Source: Gillisia marina
Lineage (GTDB): Bacteria > Bacteroidota > Bacteroidia > Flavobacteriales > Flavobacteriaceae
Length of the DNA stretch: 64,000 bases
Assembly (NCBI RefSeq): GCF_000258765.1
Contig: NZ_AJLT01000003.1
Span: 1 to 64,000 of the forward strand
Reading direction: 5' to 3'
In this document: piece after piece, positions 10,855 to 63,799 of the stretch
Numbering within the stretch: position 1 is the first letter of the stretch
Layout of the letters: every line of letters starts with the position of its first letter
Translations under genes and position numbers: made by a program
The notes under the pieces: model-generated
Told to the model about the DNA's origin: nothing
What the model saw: the letters and a program-made list of their open reading frames with translations, nothing else
Databases searched by the model: none

Positions 10855-10889
10855 CATAAAAAAAGGTGGATGAGAATCCACCTTTTTTT
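10855..10889 (-). terminator. Bidirectional terminator downstream of purF
   Basis: The stem GGTGGA/TCCACC (10865-10870 and 10877-10882) is flanked by a long A-run on one side and seven T on the other, so it can end transcripts from either strand. It would end the purF message about 150 bases past its stop. Confidence 0.85.
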
Positions 10890-40178: not shown

Positions 40179-41213
40179 ATGAGTAAAGGTGTACTCTTGG
40201 TAAATCTGGGTTCTCCGGATAGTACCGACCCAAAAGATGTAAAGAAATATTTAGGAGAGTTTTTAATGGACGAACGCGTGATCGATGTTCCTCTTTGGGC
40301 GCGAACAATTTTGGTGAAAGGAATTGTTTTAAATACAAGGCCAAAACAATCTGCCGCAGCCTACAAAAAGATCTGGTGGGATGAGGGTTCTCCTCTTATC
40401 GTTTTATCTGAAAGGTTAAAAGATAGGATAGATGAAAACACCTCTGTACCAATTGTTTTAGCAATGCGTTATGGAACTCCAAATATAAAATCCGGACTTC
40501 AGGAACTGCATGATCAGGGAGTAGATGAGGTGCTTATTTTTCCTCTCTATCCCCAGTTTGCCATGGCAACCACCGAAACTATTTTAGTTTTAGCAGAAGA
40601 GTTAAGACAAGAATTTTTTCCAAAAATGCGATTTACCTCTATTCCGGCTTTTTACAACCATCCAGATTACATTAGGGTATTGGCGAATAGTATTCAAGAG
40701 AAATTAAAAGATGTGGAATATCAACATATTTTATTTTCATATCACGGGGTACCGGAAAGACACATTCGTAAAAGTGATATTACTAAGTCTCATTGCCAGA
40801 TAGATGGAAGTTGTTGTAATACACCATCTAAAGCACATCAATTTTGTTACAGGCATCAGTGTTTTGAAACTACACGTTTGGTAGCAGAATACCTTCAGTT
40901 AAAAGAAAATTCCTATAGCGTTACCTTTCAATCCAGACTTGGTTTCGATCCATGGTTGCAACCTTATACAGATAGAACTATCGAACGTTTCGGTAAACAA
41001 GGCATGAAAAATCTAGCTATTGTAACACCTGCATTTGTGAGTGATTGTTTAGAAACTTTAGAGGAGATCGCGATGGAAGGGGAAGAGATCTTTCATGAAG
41101 TTGGCGGAAAAGAATTTACTGTTGTTCCTTGTTTAAATACTCGAGAAGATTGGGTGAAAGTACTTTCTAGATGGGTAGACGAATGGGCTTTCGCTAACGA
41201 AGTAGAAGCTTAA
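40179..41213 (+). CDS. hemH: Ferrochelatase with a cysteine-rich insertion
   Basis: A 344-residue enzyme that inserts ferrous iron into a porphyrin. The catalytic His189 is in SYHGVPERH; LVNLGSPDS (8-16), FPLYPQFAMATTE and FQSRLGFDPWLQPYTD are family marks. Between residues 206 and 228 are five cysteines (C206, C212, C213, C223, C228) in a segment absent from E. coli HemH; some bacterial ferrochelatases bind a [2Fe-2S] cluster, so a metal site is possible. Its stop overlaps the start of the MATE gene (TAATG). Confidence 0.94.
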   Translation: MSKGVLLVNLGSPDSTDPKDVKKYLGEFLMDERVIDVPLWARTILVKGIVLNTRPKQSAAAYKKIWWDEGSPLIVLSERLKDRIDENTSVPIVLAMRYGTPNIKSGLQELHDQGVDEVLIFPLYPQFAMATTETILVLAEELRQEFFPKMRFTSIPAFYNHPDYIRVLANSIQEKLKDVEYQHILFSYHGVPERHIRKSDITKSHCQIDGSCCNTPSKAHQFCYRHQCFETTRLVAEYLQLKENSYSVTFQSRLGFDPWLQPYTDRTIERFGKQGMKNLAIVTPAFVSDCLETLEEIAMEGEEIFHEVGGKEFTVVPCLNTREDWVKVLSRWVDEWAFANEVEA

Positions 41214-42576
41214 TGGCTCATGTAAATTCAGCGGCTTTAGGTAAGGATCCAATCTGGAAACTGTTAATAAAACAGGCAGCTCCAGCATCTATAGGAATTC
41301 TAGTAATGTCCCTGAATATTTTAGTGGACACTATATTTGTAGGAAATTGGATAGGTTCTATCGCAATTGCCGCGATAAATGTAGTTTTACCGGTTTCTTT
41401 CTTTATTGCTGCTTTGGGGATGGCAATAGGAATTGGAGGTTCCTCGATTATTTCAAGAGCTCTGGGTTCTGGAGATAAACCGAAAGCGCTAAAAACCTTC
41501 GGAAACCAAATTACCCTTACCCTTATTTTATCTGTATTTTTAGTATTGATAGGCTTAACGTTTGTCGATTCTATTATCCCTGCTTTTGGAGGGAAAGGAG
41601 ATATTTTCGATCCGGCCAAGATCTATTATATCGTGGTTTTATATGGAGTGCCATTCTTAGCGCTTTGTATGATGGGGAACAATGTAATACGGGCAGAAGG
41701 CAAACCAAAATTTGCTATGATTGCATGATAATTCCCTCAGTATCTAACCTTTTATTAGATTATATCCTCATCAACGTTTTGGATATGGGAATGTTGGGAG
41801 CAGCAATCGCATCGAGTGTTTCTTACTTCTTTTGTTTCTCTTATGTCTTATGGTTTTTCCTTTCCAGTAATTCAGAATTAAAGATAAATTGGGCTCATTT
41901 CGGGTTTGATTTCCCAATTTTAAAGGAGATCTCTTCTCTTGGTTTTGTCACGTTAGCCAGACAGGCAGTAGTGAGTATCACCTACTTATTAATGAATAAT
42001 ATTTTATTCGAACTCGGTGGAGAAGATTCGGTTACTGTATATGCAATTATAGGTAGAATGCTGATGTTTGCACTTTTCCCGGTATTAGGAGTAACACAAG
42101 GATTTTTGCCAATCGCCGGATATAATTACGGAGCGGCACAATGGGAACGTGTGAGAAAAAGTATCAATACCGCCATTTTGTATGCTTGTGGTTTGGGATT
42201 GTTAGTTTTTGCCGGCATCATGTTCTTTTCAGAAGATATTGTTAGAGTTTTTACAGATAATCCTGCGGTAGTTCGAGATACGCCAAGTGCCATGCGATGG
42301 GTTTTTGCTGCCACGCCAATTATCGCTTTACAGTTAATTGGTTCGGCCTATTTTCAAGCTATTGGAAAAGCAGTTCCTGCATTGTTACTCACCCTATCAC
42401 GACAAGGATTTTTCTTTATTCCTTTAGTGCTGATATTACCTATATATTATGGTGAAATTGGAGTTTGGATATCTTTCCCAATTGCCGATGTGCTCTCAAC
42501 CCTTGTAACTGCCTATTTTTTAAATCGTGAAATTCGCTTGAGGTTAAAACCATCCCTATCTGAAACGGTTTCATAG
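41213..42576 (+). pseudogene. MATE-family efflux transporter, one-base deletion
   Basis: A multidrug and toxin extrusion (MATE) exporter with about twelve membrane segments, using a cation gradient. The first part (41213-41728) has GIGGSSIISRALGSGDKPKA near residue 75 and ends in a spurious stop; the second (from about 41730 to 42576) continues MIIPSVSNLLLDYILI in another frame. Adding one A at 41725 restores IAMIIPSV and a single 454-residue protein of normal size. It is coupled to hemH, so it may export a heme precursor or unrelated toxic compounds. Probable sequencing error. Confidence 0.85.
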
Positions 42577-42652: not shown

Positions 42653-45600
42653 ATGAGAACATTTTTACCTAAACTTCTTCTTGTATTCTTTTTCTTCGGA
42701 ATTTATACAGAAACCAACGCACAACGTAACAAAAAATCTACTGAAACAACAATCGACTCAAGCGCTTTCGGAGCTTTAAAATACCGATTAATAGGACCTT
42801 TCGTGGAGGGCGTTCTGCAGCTGTAGTTGGAGTTTCCGGCGAACCAAATTTGTTTTACTTTGGATCTACCGGAGGAGGAATTTGGAGAACTACTGATGGT
42901 GCCCGTACTTGGGAGAATATCTCTGATGGATTTTTTGGAGGAAGTATCGGGGCGATAAGTATTGCTAACAGCGATCATAATATATTATTTGCCGGAGGTG
43001 GAGAAAAAACCTTAAGAGGAAATGTTTCTTCCGGATCCGGAATATGGAAATCTGTAGATGCAGGGAAAACCTGGAAATCTATGGGCTTGGAGAAAAGCAG
43101 GCATATTCCAAGAATCTCCATTCATCCTACCAATCCAGAGATCGTTTATGCAGCGGTTTTGGGAAATATTTATAAGCCAACTCAGGAACGTGGGATTTAT
43201 AAAAGTACCGATGGAGGACTTACCTGGAAAAGAAAACTTTTCGTGAATGAGCAGGCAGGGGCAGTAGATCTTATAATGGATCCTAACAACCCTCGAATTT
43301 TATATGCTTCTACATGGAGAGTGCAACGTACGCCTTATAGTTTGAGCAGTGGTGGAGAAGGATCTGCTCTTTGGAAAAGTACAGATAGTGGTGAAACCTG
43401 GAAAGAGATCTCCAATAATAAAGGCTTTCCTGAGGACACCTTGGGGATTATGGGAATTACCGTTTCTCCGGTAAACTCCAATAGAGTTTGGGCAATTGTA
43501 GAGAATAAGGAAAAGGGCGGCGTTTATAGAAGCGAAGATGGTGGTGCGAGTTGGAAAAATATAAATAGCGACCGTAGTTTACGCCAAAGAGCTTGGTATT
43601 ATACTAGAATTTACGCCGATCCTAAAGATGAAGACGTTGTTTACGTAGTGAATGTTTCTTATCATAAATCTAAAGACGGAGGAGAGAATTTTACTTCAGC
43701 AAGAGCACCTCATGGAGATCACCACGATATGTGGATCGCTCCTGAAAACCCAAATAGAATTATTATGGGTGACGACGGTGGTGCGCAGGTAACTTACGAT
43801 GGTGGAGAAACTTGGAGTACTTATCACAATCAGCCAACTGCACAATTTTACAGAGTGACTACAGATAATCACTTTCCTTATAGGATTTATGCCGCCCAAC
43901 AGGATAATTCAACTATTAGAATAGACCATAGAAGTACAGATTATACAATTTCTGAAGATAATTGGGAGGAAACTGCCGGAGGAGAATCTGCTCATATTGC
44001 AGTAGATCCAGAGAATGATGAAATTGTTTATGGAGGAAGTTACGGTGGATTTCTAACTCGTGTAAATCACGAAAAGAATACGCAACGGGCAATTAATGTT
44101 TGGCCTGATAATCCGATGGGACACGGAGCTGAAGATATGAAATACAGATTCCAATGGAATTTCCCAATCATTTTTTCTAAGCATAATTCTAATAAATTAT
44201 ATACGTTTTCCAACCATGTGCATGTAACTACGAATGAAGGCCAATCTTGGGAAACTATTAGTGAAGATCTTACGAGAAACGACCCTACTAAACTTGGTTC
44301 CAGTGGTGGACCTATAACTCAGGATAATACCGGGGTAGAGTATTACGCAACTATTTTTGCTGCTGAAGAATCTGCTTTGCAAGAAGGCTTGATCTGGGTG
44401 GGAAGCGATGATGGCTTAGTACATGTAACCAAAGACGGAGGCAAGAACTGGGAAAATGTAACTCCAAACGGATTGCCGAAATGGGCACAGATAAATTCAT
44501 TAGAAACCAGCGATCATGATGCTGGAACAGCTTATATCGCTGCCACAAGTTATAAGTCGGGGGATTTTGCACCTTACCTTTATAAGACAACCGATTTCGG
44601 GAAATCATGGACAAAAATTACCAATGGGATAGGAAATGAACATTTTACCCGAGTAATTCGTGAAGATCCAACCGATAAAAACTTGTTATATGCAGGAACC
44701 GAAAACGGTATCTATATTTCTTTTGATCAAGGAAAACAATGGCAAGAATTTCAGTTAAATCTGCCAATAGTTCCCATTACAGATCTGGCAATAAAAGAAG
44801 GAAATTTAATCGTGGCAACCCAAGGGAGAAGTATATGGATTTTAGACGATCTAAGCGTGTTGCATCAATATGATTCTGAAAACGCTAAAAAAGATTCATT
44901 TTTATTTCAACCTAAAGACACGTATAGAATTGGTGGAGGATCTAGACCAAATTCTAAGACAGATGGAACGAATCTTCCGAATGGTGTGGTGACTTATTTC
45001 AACATTAAAGATCTGGATGAAAAGAAAGACACGATTCATCTTACATATTTTAATCAGGCAAATGATACCTTGAAATCTTTCGGGAACCAATCTAAAGAAG
45101 ATAAGTTAAAAGTTAAAAAGGGTTCCAATATGTTTGTTTGGGATATGTACGAGAAAGGTGCCGAAAAGTTAGATGGGATGATTTTATGGTGGGCAGATCT
45201 TGAAGGTCCAAGAATTCTTCCCGGAGAATATGCGGTAGAATTGAATGTAAACGGGAAAAAAGAGCGTAAAAATTTTAAAGTTCTGGCGAATCCAAATGCT
45301 GAAACCGATAAAGTAGGTTTGCAAAAGCAATACGATTTTATTGCAGATGTGAATGCAACTGTAGACGAAGCTCATAAATCCATCAAAAAAATCAGAAAGA
45401 TCAACGAGCAATTAAAATCTTTTCAAACTCAATATAAGGGGAATGAAAAAGTTAAAGATCTGGTTGAAAAAGCGAAGCAAATGGAAGAGGAATTTGGGGA
45501 GATCGAAAAAGCACTTTATCAAACCCAAAATAAGAGCGGGCAAGACCCTTTAAATTTTCCAATAAAACTCACCAATAAATTGGCGCATTTAAACTCGTTA

Positions 45601-45777
45601 GTTGGAATGGGAGATTTCCCACCGACAGATCAGGATATAGCTGTGAAAAACGAGTTAACTTCAGCAATAAAAACGCAACTGACTGCTTTTGATACGTTGA
45701 TAGATAAAGAAATTAAGGAATTCAACAGACAATTCAACGCGAAGAATCTTAATTATTTATTTTTGGACGCTCAATAA
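42653..45777 (+). pseudogene. Sortilin/VPS10-like beta-propeller exported protein, one-base deletion
   Basis: A large exported protein. The ATG at 42653 begins a signal peptide (LLLVFFFFGIYTETNAQ), then ALKYRLIGPF, where the frame breaks at 42799-42801 (TTT). One more T gives RGGRSAAVVGVSGEPN and joins the long frame from 42850, for 1041 residues in total. It contains many bacterial-neuraminidase-type repeats (W-x-S-x-D-x-G-x-TW, for example KSTDGGLTWKR), which build a beta-propeller. A coiled C-terminal region (about 880-1030) follows. Proteins of this type are often annotated as glycosyl hydrolases; no active site is visible. Confidence 0.82.
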
Positions 45778-47888: not shown

Positions 47889-47960
47889 TCCGATAGCTAT
47901 CAGAACAGCAGGACGATATTTTTAGAAAATAACACCGTCACCCTGAACTTGTTTCAGGGT
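47889..47960. repeat. Intergenic hairpin repeats
   Basis: Between the kinase and enoyl-CoA hydratase genes lie a degenerate copy of the CCGATAGCTATC palindrome (47890-47901) and a perfect eight-base inverted repeat ACCCTGAA/TTCAGGGT (47940-47960) with a five-base loop. The second type resembles the intergenic hairpins common in Flavobacteria and has no coding sense. Confidence 0.45.
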
Positions 47961-48046
47961 CTAAAATTATAACACCAGTTCTCAATTTGATATTTAGTAT
48001 CAAAGCAGGTAAAAACAAATTATAAAAATCTAAAAAATCCATATAA

Positions 48047-48829
48047 ATGAATTTTGAAAATATTTTAGTTGAAAACAATGAAGGAATTCTTCAAATTAGT
48101 ATTAATAGGCCTTCTAAATTGAATGCATTAAACAGAGCTACTATTGAAGAATTGCATGATGCTTTTAGCGATGCACAAGAAGACACGGATGTTAAAGTGA
48201 TTATTTTAACAGGAAGTGGAGAAAAGGCCTTTGTTGCAGGCGCAGATATCAGTGAGTTTTCAGATTTTTCTTCGGAAGAGGGGAAAATGTTGGCTGCTGA
48301 AGGTCAGGCAAAACTATTCGACTTTGTAGCTAATTTATCCAAACCGGTAATAGCTGCCATAAATGGTTTTGCACTTGGTGGCGGATTGGAGCTTGCCATG
48401 GCTGCTCATTTTAGAATTGCCAGTGATAATGCAAAAATGGGACTTCCGGAAGTTTCTCTTGGAGTAATTCCGGGTTATGGCGGTACACAAAGACTGCCTC
48501 AATTGGTTGGAAAAGGTCGCGCTATGGAAATGATCATGACTGCCGGAATGATAGACGCCAATCAGGCCTTGCAATACAATCTCGTAAATCATGTTGTTGC
48601 ACAAGAAGAGTTGCTTGATTTTGCTGAAAAACTTGCTGGAAAGATCATGCGTAATTCTTTAGTTGCGATAAGCTCTGCGATTAAAGCGGTAAACGCTAAC
48701 TACGAAACCGGAGTGAATGGTTTTGAAACCGAAATAGCTGAATTTGGCTGGTGTTTTGGTACGGAAGATTTTAAAGAAGGAACTTCAGCATTTTTAAATA
48801 AACGCAAGGCAGATTTTCCGGGGAAGTAG
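48047..48829 (+). CDS. Enoyl-CoA hydratase/isomerase (crotonase family)
   Basis: A 260-residue cytosolic enzyme of the crotonase fold. The oxyanion hole is in VAGADISEF (63-71) and GFALGGGLELA; both hydratase glutamates are present, Glu115 and Glu135 (MGLPEVSLGVIPGYGGTQRL), so it is likely a true hydratase acting on crotonyl-like CoA esters. Whether it serves fatty-acid or amino-acid breakdown cannot be told. Transcribed alone. Confidence 0.9.
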   Translation: MNFENILVENNEGILQISINRPSKLNALNRATIEELHDAFSDAQEDTDVKVIILTGSGEKAFVAGADISEFSDFSSEEGKMLAAEGQAKLFDFVANLSKPVIAAINGFALGGGLELAMAAHFRIASDNAKMGLPEVSLGVIPGYGGTQRLPQLVGKGRAMEMIMTAGMIDANQALQYNLVNHVVAQEELLDFAEKLAGKIMRNSLVAISSAIKAVNANYETGVNGFETEIAEFGWCFGTEDFKEGTSAFLNKRKADFPGK

Positions 48830-48848: not shown

Positions 48849-48928
48849 GTTCGAGCGGAGTCGAGAACTTTTTAATCGAAAAGGGAAATCAGATTATAGC
48901 CTGTATTGAGCTATGTCGAAATGCTCAA
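48849..48928. repeat. Intergenic imperfect inverted repeats
   Basis: An imperfect palindrome (48849-48868, GTTC...GAAC) is followed by the inverted pair TTGAGC/GCTCAA (48906-48911 and 48923-48928). It is GC-richer than its surroundings and has no ORF. The phrase resembles the TGTTCGAG and TTTCGACA elements seen near 58180. Confidence 0.35.
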
Positions 48929-48951
48929 CCTGAGATATCCACTTAAAAATT

Positions 48952-49007
48952 AAAACAAAAATATGGAATAATTCCCTTTAAATGGAATTATTCCATATTT
49001 TTGTTTT
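48952..49007 (+). promoter_or_regulatory. Perfect 24-bp inverted repeat with -7 box, ends at the start codon
   Basis: Arms 48952-48975 and 48984-49007 are exact reverse complements around the eight-base spacer CTTTAAAT. Each arm includes the odd palindrome GGAATAATTCC or GGAATTATTCC. TATTTTTG (48996-49003) in the right arm matches the -7 box, and the next gene's ATG begins on the base after the repeat. This could be a double operator over a leaderless promoter, or an RNA hairpin that hides the start. Confidence 0.6.
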
Positions 49008-50085
49008 ATGTTAAATGAAGGAGAATATATAAAAGGAAGAGGAGCTCAATTAAATGTTTCAAATAAATTTGATGCGCATACCCATGAATTGCGCTCGGAT
49101 TTTCTGAATTATTGTGCGGTTGAAGGTGATGAGGCTACGAATTCTAAAACGGTTCTTATAGATACTTTTCCCAAAACCATTGTGAATAAAGTGATGAGTC
49201 CGGATGTGGGGATGGGGTATTCTTTGAATCCGTATCAGGGCTGTGAACATGGCTGTATATATTGTTATGCAAGAAATTCTCACGAATATTGGGGATATAG
49301 TGCCGGATTGGATTTTGAACAGAAAATTTTTGTTAAGCGAAATTCAGCAGAACTTCTCGAAAAAAAACTTCAAAGTCACCGTTGGAAGGCCGTACCCATT
49401 GTATTATCTGGAAATACAGATTGCTACCAGCCAATCGAAAAGAAATTGGAGATCACCAGGCAACTGCTCAAAACATTTTTAAAATTCAAACACCCGGTTG
49501 GGATCATTACGAAAAACTCTCTGGTACTTCGTGATTTAGATGTTTTGAAAGAACTAGCAAAAAACAATTTAGTTCAGGTTCACCTTTCAATAACTTCTTT
49601 AAATGAAGAAACCAGAAGGATCCTTGAACCGAGAACAGCAACTATTAAAAAACGCTTGGAAACCCTAAATCTATTAGCTTCCAATAATATCCCAGTAAGT
49701 GTGATGATGGCTCCAATAATTCCCGGAATCAATAGTCATGAAATTCTACAGCTTGTAAAAGCAATTTCAGAAAACGGTGCTCTAGGAGTTGGATATACTA
49801 TGGTAAGGTTGAATGGAGCTATAGGCGGAATATTTACCGATTGGATAAAAAAAAACAATGCCGGATAGAGCAGATAAAGTATTACATCAAATAGCCGAAT
49901 GTCATGGCGGAAATTTGAACGATAGCGAATTTGGCCGACGCATGAAAAGATCGGGAAATATTGCTGAACAGGTTTCACAACAATTTAAGATTGCACGAAA
50001 AAAGTATTTATCGGGTAAGGAGATGCCCAGACTAAACTGTGAATTACATGAGCAATATAAGGATGGACAGATGAGATTATTTTAA
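49008..50085 (+). pseudogene. PA0069-family radical SAM protein, frame broken in an A9 run
   Basis: A radical S-adenosylmethionine protein related to spore photoproduct lyases. The first part (49008-49868) has the cluster-binding cysteines Cys79, Cys83 and Cys86 in YQGCEHGCIYCYARN. The last residues change frame at the run of nine A at 49847-49855; with eight, DWIKK continues into TMPDRADKVLHQIAEC and the second part to 50085, giving 358 residues. The reaction is not established for this family. A radical SAM DNA-repair role is inference. Expressed from an unusual inverted-repeat promoter. Confidence 0.85.
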
Positions 50086-51754: not shown

Positions 51755-51850
51755 GAATAGTTAAAAGTTAAATTATTAGTGAATTTACATTTTTTATTAG
51801 TTGGATTTAATAAAAATAGTATCTTAATTGCTGAAATTGAGTGTTTTATA

Positions 51851-54662
51851 ATGAAAGGCAGAAAACTTTTATTATTTCTGATGCTTCTTGGCATCCTCAA
51901 GATTTCTGCTCAAAACACTGCCCTATCAGGTTCCGTAGTGGACGCCTTGTCTAATCAACCAATCGTAGGGGCACGCCTAAAATTGGAGGGTACCACCTAT
52001 ATAAAAATCTCAGCACCCGATGGCAGTTTTCAATTTCAGGATATAGACCTAGTTCCAGGAAATTACATTTTGGAAATTACCAAACCAGCATATCAAATTG
52101 TACGAATCCCTATAAATTTAAATGTTGAACAACCTAAACCCTTGGGTGAAATTCCTTTACAACAAGTTCTGTTGAAGGAACAAATTCAGTTGGCGACCAT
52201 AAGTTTAAGCGAATCTGAATTGAATGAAGATCAAGGTGGTACAGATAATATAACAGGATTACTTCAAGCTTCCCGGGATGTTTTTCTAAATGCTGCTGCC
52301 TTTGATTTCAGTAGTACATTTTTTAAACCTCGAGGTTTGGGAAGCGAATATGGCATTGTCTCCATAAATGGGATTGAAATGAATAAATTCTTTGATGGCA
52401 GACCACAATGGAGTAATTGGGGCGGACTAAATGACCTTCAGCGAAATCAGGTTTTTGCCAATGGCTTGGTTCCGGGAGAAACCACATTTGGTTCTCTGGC
52501 TGGAAATACTAATATCCTTATGAGGGCGTCCCAATACAGCAGAAATACTAAGGTGTCTTATGCTGCTGCTAACAGGAGTTATGCCGGGAGAGTTATGGCA
52601 ACCTATAGTTCCGGGGAAAAGCCCGGAGGTTGGTGGTATGCATTAGGGTTAGCAAGAAGATTTGCAACTGAGGCTTACATTGATGGGACATTATACGATG
52701 CAAACTCTTTTTTTATTTCAGTAGAGAAAAAGTTGAATTATGCACATAGCTTAAATTTCACGGGCTTCTACACACCCAATATTCGGGGGAAATCTTCGGC
52801 AAACACTCAGGAAGTTTTCGATCTTAAGGGTAGAAAATATAATTCCTTTTGGGGTATTCAGGATGGGGAGATCAGGAATAGCAGAATTAAAGAGGTTAAA
52901 GAGCCCATTTTAATGCTGAATCACTTCTGGAAACTTTCAGAAAAAATCAAAATAAATAATAATGTCGGCTATCAATTTGGTTCTACTGGAAATACTCATT
53001 TGGATTTTGGTGGTACACGGCTGGTAACTCAAAGCGATGCGCAACAAAGTTTTATAGGAGGCGGGAGCAATCCAGACCCTTCCTATTATCAAAAACTGCC
53101 TAGTTATTTTCTAAGATTTTCTGACAATCTGAATTTTGAAGCGGCGTATCGTTCTCAAAAAGATTTTCAAGAAAATGGACAAATCAATTGGCAAGATTTA
53201 TATGAAGCCAACAAGGTTTCCTTAAGTAGTGGTGGAAATGCTATTTATGTAATTGCTGAAGACAAAGTGGAAGACAAACTTCTAAATCTAAATTCAATTT
53301 TAACTGCAAATATTAATTCTTCATTGATGCTAACCGCCAAGCTGAAATTTTCCAATCTAAACAGCGAAAATTATGCTGAGGTAAATGACCTTTTAGGCGG
53401 AATAGGGTATCTAGATGTAGATTTTTTTTCGGAAGGAAATAGGGCACAGAATGATTTATTGAATCCAAATAGGATTGCCGGTTTAGAAGAAAGATTAAAA
53501 TATAATTTTAAATGGAAAGCAGCTTCAGCTGAAGCTTTTGTGAATATGATAATGAGAACCGAAAAATTAGATTCTTATGTAGCGCTCAATGTATCTCAAA
53601 CCAATTATCAGCGAGAAGGATTTTATAAAAACGGAAATTTTCCGGAAACGTCTTTCGGCAAGAGTAAAAAGCTAGAATTTACAGATTACGGAGCAAAGGC
53701 TGGGTCTGTTTGGAAAATTACGGGAAAGCATTTATTGGAATTTAATGCAGCCTATTTCACGAATGCTCCTGCAATTAAAAATTCCTTTTCTAATTCCAGA
53801 CAAAATAACAACGTAGTAGTCGGGATTAAGAGCGAACAAATCTACTCGGGGGATGCCAGTTACATTTTTAGAAGTTCTTTTTTTGAAAGCTAGGCTCACC
53901 GGCTATTTCACTCAGATAAATAATGCAACCGAAATCTCCTTTTACTATGCCGATGGACTTTCCGGATTGGGAAGAAATAGCACGACAGCTTTTGTTCAGG
54001 AGATTTTAACCGGTATCGATAAGCAGCATCTTGGACTCGAATTAGGAGCTGAAGCACAGTTAACTTCCACCTTAAAGCTAAAGACGGCAGTTGCATCAGG
54101 GCAATTCATTTATAACAATAATCCGGATTTAAAACTCACCTCCGACGATTTTATTGAAGCTCAAGATTATGGAGAATCGAATTTGAAAAATTATAGGATT
54201 GCAGGTGGGCCGCAACGAGCCGCTCAAATAGGCTTTGAATATCGCGATCCCGATTACTGGTGGTTTGGAACAACGCTCAATTATTTTTCTCATGCTTTTG
54301 CAGATGTTAGTCCGCTGGCAAGAACCAGCAATTTTGCAACAGATTCCGATGGTTTGCCACTTTTAGGCTATGATGAGAATATTGCCCTGGACCTTTTAAA
54401 ACAAGAGCAATTTGATGATTATTTTTTGTTAAATGCTGTGGGCGGAAAATCCTGGAGAGTAAAAAATTATTACATCGGATTTTTTGTGAGCGTTAATAAT
54501 ATTTTAGATGAATTGTACAAATCAGGTGGCTTTGAACAATCTCGGAATGCAAATTTTAGAACTCTAAAAGCAGACAGAGATCGAGAACAACCAGTATTTG
54601 GCTCTAAATATTGGTATGGAACAGGAACTTCCTATTATGGGAATGTATATATCAGATTTTGA
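51851..54662 (+). pseudogene. TonB-dependent receptor, frame broken in a T7 run
   Basis: An outer-membrane active-transport receptor. The ATG at 51851 is chosen because the signal peptide (LLLFLMLLGILKISAQ) starts there, not at the upstream GTG. A carboxypeptidase-like regulatory domain (about 24-110) is followed by the plug and the barrel. The frame breaks at 53878-53884 (seven T); with six, YIFRSSF continues LKARLTGYFTQI into the second part and gives 936 residues. The C-terminus ends with an aromatic residue as barrels do. Substrate unknown. It is followed by a DUF5689 lipoprotein. Confidence 0.87.
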
Positions 54663-56673: not shown

Positions 56674-57895
56674 TTATTCCTTCTCCTCGATCTCTTCGTA
56701 TTCCGGGTAAAGAAGGTTGTTATAAGGGAATCTGGAAAGATGTATTTTTCGAACGGTATTATATACTTTTTTCTTAAAGTCTTCAATATTATCTTTATTC
56801 AAAGCTGAAATGAATAATACGTTATCTCCCATTCTATTCATCCATGTGCGTTTCCATTCTTCCAGAGAATAATTGGCCTTTGTATGTTCGGTGATTAAAT
56901 CATCCTCTTCAATTTTTTTCTTCGACGAACGCATCAATTTTGTTGAAAACCATTATAGTGGGCTTGTTATTGCTCTTTATATCTGCCAAGGTTTGGTTCA
57001 CAGATTCTATGTGATCTTCAAAATTTGGATGGGAAATATCTACTACATGTAATAATAAATCGGCTTCCCGAACTTCGTCTAATGTAGATTTAAAAGATTC
57101 TACCAATTGTGTAGGAAGTTTTCTAATGAATCCAACTGTATCGGTTAATAAGAAAGGTAAATTTCTAATTACCACCTTTCTTACCGTGGTGTCTAATGTT
57201 GCAAATAACTTATTTTCAGCAAAGACTTCACTCTTGCTTATTACATTCATCAAAGTAGATTTCCCAACATTCGTATAACCTACAAGTGCTACACGAACCA
57301 TCGATCCTCGGTTTCCACGTTGTACGCCCATTTGCTTATCTATGGTCTCCAATTTCTTTTTAAGTAAAGAAATTTTATCACGTACAATACGTCTATCTGT
57401 TTCTATCTCTGTTTCCCCGGGACCACGCATTCCAATACCCCCACGCTGACGTTCCAAGTGAGTCCACATTCCGGCAAGTCTAGGCAATAGGTATTGATAT
57501 TGTGCCAACTCTACCTGAGTTCGTGAATTACTTGTTTGAGCTCTTTGCGCAAAAATATCTAAAATCAAATTTGTTCTATCCAAGATTTTACAATCCAAGA
57601 TCTTTTCTATATTCTTTTGCTGTGCAGGAGAAAGTTCATCATCAAAAATGGCGGTCTTTACATCGTTAGCCTGAATAAAAGCTCTTACATCTTCGATCTT
57701 TCCGGTTCCAATAAAAGTCTTTGGATTCGGCTTTTCCATTTTCTGAGTAAACCGCTTTAAAACCTCACCACCGGCCGTATATGTTAAAAACTCAAGTTCG
57801 TCTAAATATTCATTTAGTTTATCTTCACTCTGCTGTTGAGTCACAACCCCAATAAGCACAGCTTTTTCGTATGTTAAATCAGTCTTATCTATCAT
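56674..57895 (-). pseudogene. hflX: Ribosome-associated GTPase HflX, frame broken in an A7 run
   Basis: A GTPase that binds the large ribosomal subunit and rescues stalled or hibernating ribosomes. The HflX N-terminal domain (GGEVLKRFTQ, PNPKTFIGTGKIE) is followed by the GTPase motifs: G1 GYTNVGKS, G3 DTVG and G4 NKID. The frame breaks at 56913-56919 (seven T, A7 in the coding strand); with six, AFVEEKIEEDDLI continues and reaches G5 (FISALN), giving 406 residues. The start at 57895 is chosen because family members begin near MIDKTD. Probable error rather than a dead gene. Confidence 0.9.
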
Positions 57896-57900
57896 AATCA

Positions 57901-57908
57901 CAAAGTTA
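57901..57908 (-). promoter_or_regulatory. -7-like box close to the hflX start
   Basis: TAACTTTG on the minus strand matches TAnnTTTG five bases before the ATG at 57895, which would give a nearly leaderless message. No -33 element at ideal spacing is seen. Confidence 0.3.
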
Positions 57909-58001
57909 CACAATAGATCTCAACTGAAATCCTAGAGTGCTTTATTCAACAAAAAATTAACTATTTGAAGATTATTTTAAAAAGAATTGTTGCTTCATTT
58001 A

Positions 58002-62435: not shown

Positions 62436-63751
62436 CTAAAGGTCATATCCTAAATTCACACCTAATTTAAGTGCTATTTGATGTGTAATTCTCTTTTTGA
62501 TCTCAGGAATTTTCACACTTTCCATTACGTTATTTGCAAAGGCATACATTAAAAGGGCACGAGCTTCTTTTAACGGAATTCCTCTAGAACGCAAGTAGAA
62601 CAAAGATTCTTCATCTAATTGTCCAATAGTACAACCATGACTACATTTAACATCATCTGCAAAAATCTCCAGCTGAGGTTTAGAGTTGATAGTTGCTTTA
62701 TCGTCCATTAAAATATTATTGTTGGACTGAAATGCGTTAATTTTTTGTGCTTCTTTATCTACCATAACCCTTCCGTTGAAAACTCCAACTGAATTATCGG
62801 CAAAGATGCCTTTATAATCCTGATGACTTTCACAATTAGGGGAAGTATGGTGTACAAGCGTGTTGTGATCTACATGCTGTTTTCCTTCAATAATCGTGAT
62901 TCCTTTTAAAGTAGATTCAGATCGCTCTCCTTTTTGATAGAAATTTAAATTATTTCGAGTCAATTTTCCGCCGAAAGAAAAGGTATGTAAAAAGCAATAA
63001 CTCTCTTCTTTCTGCTCCACAAAGGTATTGTCTATTAAAGAAGCAGAATCTCTGTCATTCTGAATCTTATAATAATCTACAATAGCTCTTTTTTCAGCAA
63101 AAACTTCGGTAACAGAATTCGTGAAAACAGGATGATCTGTTAAACTCTGATGTCTTTCAATAATTTGTACCTGAGAATTTTCCCCAACTACAATAAGATT
63201 TCTAGGCTGAACCAATAAAGCCGACTCATTCCCTGTTGAAAAATTGATTATTTGAATAGCTTATCTGCCGATTTGTTCTTGTGAATATGGATAAACGCAC
63301 CTTCTTTAGAAAAAGCAGTATTCAAAGCATTTAATCCGCTATTTTTTGGAACTATTTTGTTGAAATAATTCTCTATGATTGGCTTATACTTAGATTTTGA
63401 TAAAGCAGAAGACATCAAACAAACATCTATTTTATCGTGAGTGGTCTCCGATAAATGAGAGGAGTAGATCCCATCTATAAAAATCAATTTATAAGAATCT
63501 ATATCATGAATTAGATATTTCTTGATATCCTTATAATCTATAGCATCTTCCTTTTTTGGGAATACGCTATAATCATATTTTAATACCGAATTTAGGGAAG
63601 TGTATTTCCAGGCTTCATCTTTTTTAGATGGAAAGCCAAGGGTTTCAAATTCCTTGATGGCATCGCTTCTTAATTGATGTATATCTGTATCCACATCGAA
63701 AGCTTCTTCAAAAGCCATAAAAGAGGACAGTAATTTATCTTTTAATTCCAT
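62436..63751 (-). pseudogene. sufD: Fe-S cluster assembly protein SufD, one-base deletion
   Basis: A scaffold subunit of the SufBCD complex. The N-terminal part (63248-63751) contains KKDEAWKYTSL; the C-terminal part (62436-63215) has the SufBD beta-helix, GGKLTRNNL and the CSHGCTIGQLDEESLFYLRSRG motif. The frames join if one G (C in the coding strand) is added at 63259: KPIQIINFSTGNESALLVQPRNL then reads through and gives 438 residues, the usual SufD size. The gene is essential in related bacteria, so sequencing error is likely. Confidence 0.9.
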
Positions 63752-63799
63752 TTTTCGTTTCTTTAACTTGGTTAATAATCAGGCAACTTAAAAAAAGGT

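Follow-up and report, generated by a model that had tools for sequence, protein, structure and literature searches.

Introduction

In Bacteroidetes, LexA is replaced by a non-canonical LexA that combines an S24 peptidase with a CI-like HTH (Sanchez-Osuna et al. 2021, PMC8565304). The group found in the Flavobacteriaceae binds the sequence GGA-N5-TCC, as established by EMSA with mutated sites for Salegentibacter agarivorans, in which the predicted SOS genes, with the exception of recA, rise after mitomycin C (PMC8565304). The published predicted regulon includes dinB, dnaE, a two-gene UDG operon, a SplB radical SAM gene (COG1533), an exonuclease, SRAP and the regulator, and several of the gene promoters carry two or more boxes (PMC8565304). 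The EMSA of the S24 protein concerns promoters other than the one described here, and the fold of the regulator has already been modelled (PMC8565304).

The consulted text of that paper, figures and supplements aside, makes no mention of mitomycin C induction of the radical SAM gene itself in Salegentibacter, and its main text, supplements aside, does not describe a fixed distance between boxes (the word "spacing" occurs once and the string "cooperat" not at all). In the literature searched, GGA-N5-TCC was named in no other paper and "PA0069 family radical SAM" had no mention. The text of PMC8565304 was also the sole match for Flavobacteriaceae in a literature search on SOS box, LexA and leaderless messages, and the word "leaderless" is absent from it.

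This study was concerned with a palindrome that ends at the start codon of a PA0069-family radical SAM gene in a stretch of 64,000 nucleotides from Gillisia marina, referred to as the window. It is highly probable, from the sequence comparisons reported below, that the palindrome is a double SOS operator of the flavobacterial non-canonical LexA lying over the radical SAM promoter. As such it is a new example of a switch of known kind, described in 2021 (PMC8565304). The locus and the published system share the box, the bacterial family and an overlapping set of targets; they differ in that here an exact pair of boxes 19 bp apart is present at most targets and the arms are symmetric further out.

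The CTAA-N5-TTAG SOS box of other Bacteroidetes (PMC8565304) is comparable in that 14 of 51 loci have it, intact, before the radical SAM orthologue. This class differs in the box sequence and in having mostly a single intact box, and 19-bp pairs are not enriched in it (one locus, L164). Classical LexA and lambda CI operators are alike in that an S24 repressor with self-cleavage residues acts on adjacent operators over a promoter. They differ in that canonical LexA is absent from Bacteroidetes, whose regulator has an HTH of the CI type without a wing (PMC8565304). Lastly, intrinsic terminators also consist of a palindrome that forms a hairpin followed by a T-rich stretch, but the T-rich stretch of the present palindrome is a conserved -7 element and its outer arms are not conserved.

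Materials and Methods

The strict paired pattern was TGGA-N5-TCC-N6..10-GGA-N5-TCCA, and the reversed pattern served as the control. The assembly of the own genome is 94% complete and consists of 116 contigs. The targets counted as SOS-type were radical SAM PA0069, dinB, the S24 regulator, rSAM_link_UDG or its TIGR03915 partner, dnaE, the DEDD exonuclease and SRAP. Strict sites were assigned to targets mostly by blastp to the own proteins or by the position of the orthologue, and in a few cases by a family scan. The dinB, S24 and rSAM_link_UDG sites of L099, L109, L111, L112 and L114 were counted as upstream because the mechanical frame begins too early. The named loci of the radical SAM gene were divided, on the basis of title and identity, into Flavobacteriaceae (L121-L149) and a more distant group (L150-L200); one locus of the distant group carries just the title Flavobacteriales.

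Results and Discussion

The palindrome and its two boxes

Positions 48952-48975 and 48984-49007 are exact reverse complements with CTTTAAAT between them. The earlier note had described two exact 24-base arms around an eight-base spacer, and the perfect arms are even 25 nt long (48951-48975 and 48984-49008), reaching one base into the ATG. When the arms are counted through the loop with one mismatch allowed, they extend to 29 nt at 97%. With loops of up to 20 nt, no perfect inverted repeat of the window is longer, and 12 Markov-1 surrogates had arms of 10-12 nt at the longest. The RNA of the palindrome folds with a z score of -10.5, which was equalled by none of 200 shuffles. The features are listed in Table 1.

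Table 1. Features of the palindrome and its surroundings, in window positions.
Feature	Position	Strand	Basis or remark
Enoyl-CoA hydratase gene, 121 nt 5' of the palindrome	48047..48829	+	context only
Whole palindrome, 25-nt arms and 8-nt spacer	48951..49008	.	sequence, surrogates
Predicted SOS box 1, GGAATAATTCC (GGA-N5-TCC)	48965..48975	.	motif from PMC8565304
8-nt spacer CTTTAAAT, sets the 19-bp centre-to-centre box distance	48976..48983	.	pair comparison
Predicted SOS box 2, GGAATTATTCC, directly 5' of the -7 element	48984..48994	.	
Bacteroidetes -7 element TATTTTTG (consensus TAHHTTTG)	48996..49003	+	kept in the genus; consensus from PMC6847099
Predicted transcription start, A of the ATG, 4 nt after the -7 element	49008	+	inferred
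PA0069-family radical SAM gene, two frames (49008-49868, 49858-50085)	49008..50085	+	frameshift at the A9 run 49847-49855

The sequence GGAATNATTCC occurs at just two sites in the window, both in the palindrome (expected 0.19; at least two in 2 of 100 shuffles). These are the 11-base odd palindromes that had been noticed in each arm, and each arm contains with them one GGA-N5-TCC box with its fixed 5-bp spacer. The statement that no regulator was described for this site does not stand, since GGA-N5-TCC is the published site of the non-canonical LexA of Flavobacteriaceae (PMC8565304). An apparently unknown operator thereby becomes testable.

Other inverted repeats are present in the window. The runner-up among perfect ones lies at 10858-10889, with arms of 14 nt and a loop of 4 nt. 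Short imperfect palindromes of the CACCCTGAACTTGTTTCAGGGT and TGTTCGAGCGGAGTCGAGAAC types, REP-like by eye, occur in the intergenic regions at 47935-47965 and 48850-48930.

Paired sites in the own genome and in 60 genomes

The strict pair was found at three places in the own genome and at none for the reversed control. A search of the genome with the whole palindrome identified two other places at E < 1e-3, both SOS genes, so that the earlier suggestion to look for paired sites before other genes yielded two more, at dinB and rSAM_link_UDG. At the DNA polymerase IV (dinB) gene (L015), box 2 ends 6 nt 5' of the ATG; at L023, the pair lies just 5' of the TIGR03916 rSAM_link_UDG gene, which is followed by the start of the TIGR03915 gene in a UDG-type repair operon. 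The three targets are all of kinds listed in the published SOS regulon (PMC8565304). Single GGAATNATTCC sites number 19 in the own genome against 5 for the reversed control; two of these are the present palindrome and two the dinB pair, and none of the other 15, viewed with 50 nt on either side, belongs to an exact pair.

Across the 60 genomes, the strict pair occurs at 49 sites, against 4 for the reversed control, and 43 of the 49 precede SOS-type genes. One of the remaining sites lies before a type IIG restriction enzyme and five lie inside unrelated genes (G020, G024, G035, G038 and G053). When spacers of 0-30 were allowed in the 16 genomes of the genus, box pairs were found at 46 places, against 5 for the reversed control. 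A spacer of 8 was present in 29 of them and the other 17 were scattered over other values. All 29 pairs with a spacer of 8 sit at SOS genes, namely radical SAM PA0069 (12), dinB or S24 or both (15), the exonuclease (1) and rSAM_link_UDG (1).

The same distance stands out at the radical SAM loci L121-L149, where 19 bp is the sole peak (16 of 29 with no more than one mismatch) and every other distance from 12 to 40 occurs at most once. To judge from the sites compared, the 19-bp spacing is not obligatory; for example, the boxes are 22 bp apart at the own regulator gene and at L143, and 21 bp apart at L148. The preferred distance suggests that two dimers would touch and bind cooperatively, a point that the text of PMC8565304 leaves unaddressed.

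Conservation upstream of orthologues

The radical SAM gene was found in 29 of the 60 genomes. Conservation upstream of its orthologues, which had been named as a check, holds throughout the genus, in which all 13 genomes with the gene (own included) have the pair at 8-nt spacing; 12 match 14 of 14 fixed letters and one matches 13. Among other family members with the gene the pair is present in 5 of 12 (L042, at 13 of 14 letters; L043; L045; L047; and L053, with a spacer of 9) and missing at the gene in the other 7 (L044, L046 and L048-L052). It is also missing in all four gene carriers outside the family.

In the named loci L121-L149, two intact boxes 19 bp apart are present in 15 of 29, a count that takes in L122, apparently a duplicate of the L041 assembly, and leaves out L143 and L148, whose boxes are intact at the distances given above. 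One locus, L121, has a single intact GGA box, and 11 have no intact GGA box in the 200 nt examined. An alternative count, with a pair score of at least 13, gives 14 of 29 and includes L122 and the misregistered L121. Of the named relatives of the radical SAM protein, the one that heads the list is from Salegentibacter flavus (L121, 77% identity); records close to the window may have been left out of this list. None of the 51 more distant loci L150-L200 has a GGA box; 14 of these 51 have an intact CTAA-N5-TTAG box, against none of the 29 loci L121-L149. By these counts the operator class changes with the clade, as PMC8565304 describes.

Promoter geometry and the predicted leaderless start

In Flavobacterium johnsoniae, the -7 element is TAHHTTTG and lies 4 or 5 nt from the start site in probable promoters; leaders of more than 10 nt make up 87% (PMC6847099). 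The phylum is naturally without Shine-Dalgarno sequences (PMC6847099). The -7 box that had been read in the right arm is the TATTTTTG element of Table 1; it follows the sigma-ABfr pattern, TAHHTTTG with 4-5 nt to the start, counted here as 4 nt to the ATG. With 4 nt left between the -7 box and the ATG, the message is predicted to be leaderless. Position 49008 holds the sole in-frame ATG, GTG or TTG from the preceding stop to the conserved protein core. In the genus, the distance from the -7 box to the ATG nearest the core is 4-5 nt in 12 of 13 members and 3 nt in the remaining member. A single box among the 13 ends in TTTA, and six of the 13 members have other in-frame starts further upstream, in or before the operator. 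The comparison thus supports a promoter geometry from which the leaderless message of the earlier note is predicted, and the prediction holds across the genus. With such a start codon, the gene is a clear-cut example of a message predicted to be leaderless and damage-inducible.

The layout is different in other genera. In 17 pairs from these, the spacer together with the G of box 2 always reads TAHHTTTG, the spacer being ATAAATTT in 10 of the 17, and the start codon mostly lies 14-17 nt past this inter-box TAHHTTTG. The inter-box sequence is possibly a -7 box, and promoter and operator seem to have shifted relative to each other among Flavobacteriaceae. In either arrangement the core promoter is overlapped or directly adjoined by the boxes, consistent with a repressor that acts by exclusion. 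Loci with the -7-like box between, and not behind, the two operators include L045, L047, L123, L126, L134 and L138, along with others, all of them Flavobacteriaceae.

The geometry was also compared with relatives that carry the other SOS box. These counts take in the loci that have both an in-frame ATG ahead of the core and 70 nt preceding it, with L122 left out of the family group. Of 13 loci in the CTAA group, 8 have a TTTG whose end is 4-5 nt from the ATG; 7 of the 8 are Mucilaginibacter and therefore not independent. The same geometry is present in 3 of 32 distant loci that lack an intact box and in 3 of 25 other Flavobacteriaceae. The eight CTAA-N5-TTAG loci with this TTTG are L157, L167, L169, L176, L177, L181, L190 and L192.

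Since the distance of 4-5 nt from the -7 box to the ATG is also found in CTAA-N5-TTAG relatives, the leaderless start may have outlived a change of operator. Possibly new details of this switch are the rigid 19-bp pairing and a leaderless start common to relatives with another SOS box. The fuller proposal, of a composite operator in which two boxes at a preferred 19 bp are bound by cooperating dimers and, at this gene, are fused to a leaderless promoter that has outlived a change to or from an unrelated operator sequence, is put forward tentatively, and we would sooner doubt it than rely on it.

The hairpin as an alternative

The earlier note had allowed for a large hairpin if transcription started upstream. 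A related explanation is that the hairpin is mainly an intrinsic terminator of the enoyl-CoA hydratase gene, insulating the radical SAM gene, and that the boxes are a by-product. The palindrome is indeed terminator-like by motif on both strands, with a hairpin and a T-run, but two terminator motifs were found against 1.2 (sd 1.3) in shuffles, which is no excess. A T-run lies 3' of the arms here and also at the C19 site, but it is explained by the -7 box, and the box pair at the own dinB site has no T-run. All 13 genus sequences fold, at -13.2 to -30.2 kcal/mol, although folding in 13 of 13 is expected of any symmetric box pair.

The symmetry around and within the boxes was therefore compared position by position with shuffles. 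The five flank positions that adjoin the boxes are complementary in all 13 genus sequences, and at flank positions 6-20 the symmetry is not above that of shuffles (1658 of 2000 reach it). In genus members, inverted matching between the two N5 stretches is at a level that only 17 of 2000 and 50 of 5000 shuffles attain, in a test that is inflated by related rows. At dinB/S24 sites the inverted N5 match is not in excess, being attained by 3866 of 5000 shuffles, and the same holds for the radical SAM gene in other genera, with 947 of 5000. The tests with 5000 shuffles left out L042, L053, L121, L122, L143 and L148 and the exonuclease, UDG, SRAP and dnaE sites. A pooled N5 test of 29 rows, matched by 1 of 5000 shuffles, was set aside since it combines two clades whose spacers differ.

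On this evidence we regard a mainly terminating function as improbable, although the hairpin may in addition help to end the hydratase transcript. Nor is the hairpin likely to be the selected feature: position-wise complementarity shows just a weak N5 excess over shuffles, in the genus alone. Because the outer complementarity is no better than that of shuffles and the N5 excess is confined to the genus, the long perfect arms of this one genome are best seen, in the sequences compared, as an accident on top of a conserved core. The large hairpin is not needed, symmetry beyond the boxes and the short flank not being conserved in the genus.

The candidate regulator

The double SOS operator that we prefer has a candidate regulator in the own genome, an HTH_3 and Peptidase_S24 protein on another contig (G000:C19, L088 1201-1776). 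Its gene has its own GGA-N5-TCC boxes at 1148-1158 and 1170-1180, directly upstream of the ATG at 1201. Ala105-Gly106, Ser144 and Lys183 are invariant among seven aligned S24 sequences, consisting of the own protein and six relatives that are all themselves beside paired sites. The protein thus has the HTH_3 and S24 domains, the Ala-Gly bond, the Ser-Lys dyad and the box at its own gene that are expected of a non-canonical LexA.

A second S24/HTH protein is encoded on contig C72 (L087), and the site might be bound by this or another regulator. We consider this very improbable. The whole 2969-base locus of the C72 protein is without a GGA-N5-TCC box, whereas the C19 protein has two boxes upstream, and relatives of the C19 protein adjoin paired sites, often divergent from dinB. 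That the palindrome is a repeat, the end of a mobile element or a product of chance can be practically dismissed: its long perfect arms and the REP-like palindromes nearby would suit such an origin, but the genome matches are confined to the two SOS genes rather than many unlinked copies, all 13 genus members with the gene keep the pair before the orthologue, and the arms of the surrogates fall far short of this length.

Proposed operation of the switch

As an SOS operator, the palindrome would hold two dimers of the non-canonical LexA on its two GGA-N5-TCC boxes, 19 bp apart. The bound repressor would cover the DNA just 5' of the -7 element and keep RNA polymerase off the radical SAM promoter. 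Once DNA is damaged, the repressor would be induced by RecA filaments to cleave itself at the Ala-Gly bond, and the boxes would be vacated. Transcription would then begin from or beside the first base of the ATG, and the PA0069-family (SplB-like) radical SAM protein would be made from a leaderless message. For this site we infer occupancy, cooperativity, RecA-triggered cleavage and the leaderless start. The damage-responsive repressor with a double operator, which had been offered as a guess, is supported by comparison of the boxes, of the SOS-gene targets and of conservation in the genus. A recently described SOS system is thus supported on further genomes, and its members in this genome can be named.

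The radical SAM gene and the assembly

The first frame of the radical SAM gene alone scores 393.7 bits for NF033668, against a cut-off of 360. Its score for spore photoproduct lyase (TIGR04070) is 20.2 bits against a cut-off of 400, so that the kinship with photolesion lyases claimed in the earlier note holds in a loose superfamily sense and fails by far for the lyase family itself. The PA0069-family protein would be the COG1533 member meant in the published regulon, and its role would presumably be in repair.

The C19 regulator gene, like the radical SAM gene, is broken in this assembly, with a frameshift 3' of the catalytic Lys. When 26 window genes (33799-64000) were compared with two or three intact relatives, 6 were split between two frames. 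Since 6 of 26 compared genes are split, assembly indel errors are the likeliest cause of the frame breaks in the radical SAM gene, the C19 regulator gene and the window genes. The split genes lie at 41213-42573, 42653-45774, 49008-50085, 51779-54659, 56704-57913 and 62439-63778. In one relative, a second, partial copy of the radical SAM gene (L058, G005:C1:84091-84375) is present about 3 kb downstream of the full one.

A further observation concerns restriction. At L201 10997-14880 (G010:C1:1520997), a box pair with a 7-nt spacer that holds a -7-like box, TAATTTTG, lies 5' of a gene for a type IIG restriction enzyme-methyltransferase of 1041 aa. In this one genome, the gene is possibly an SOS-controlled restriction gene.
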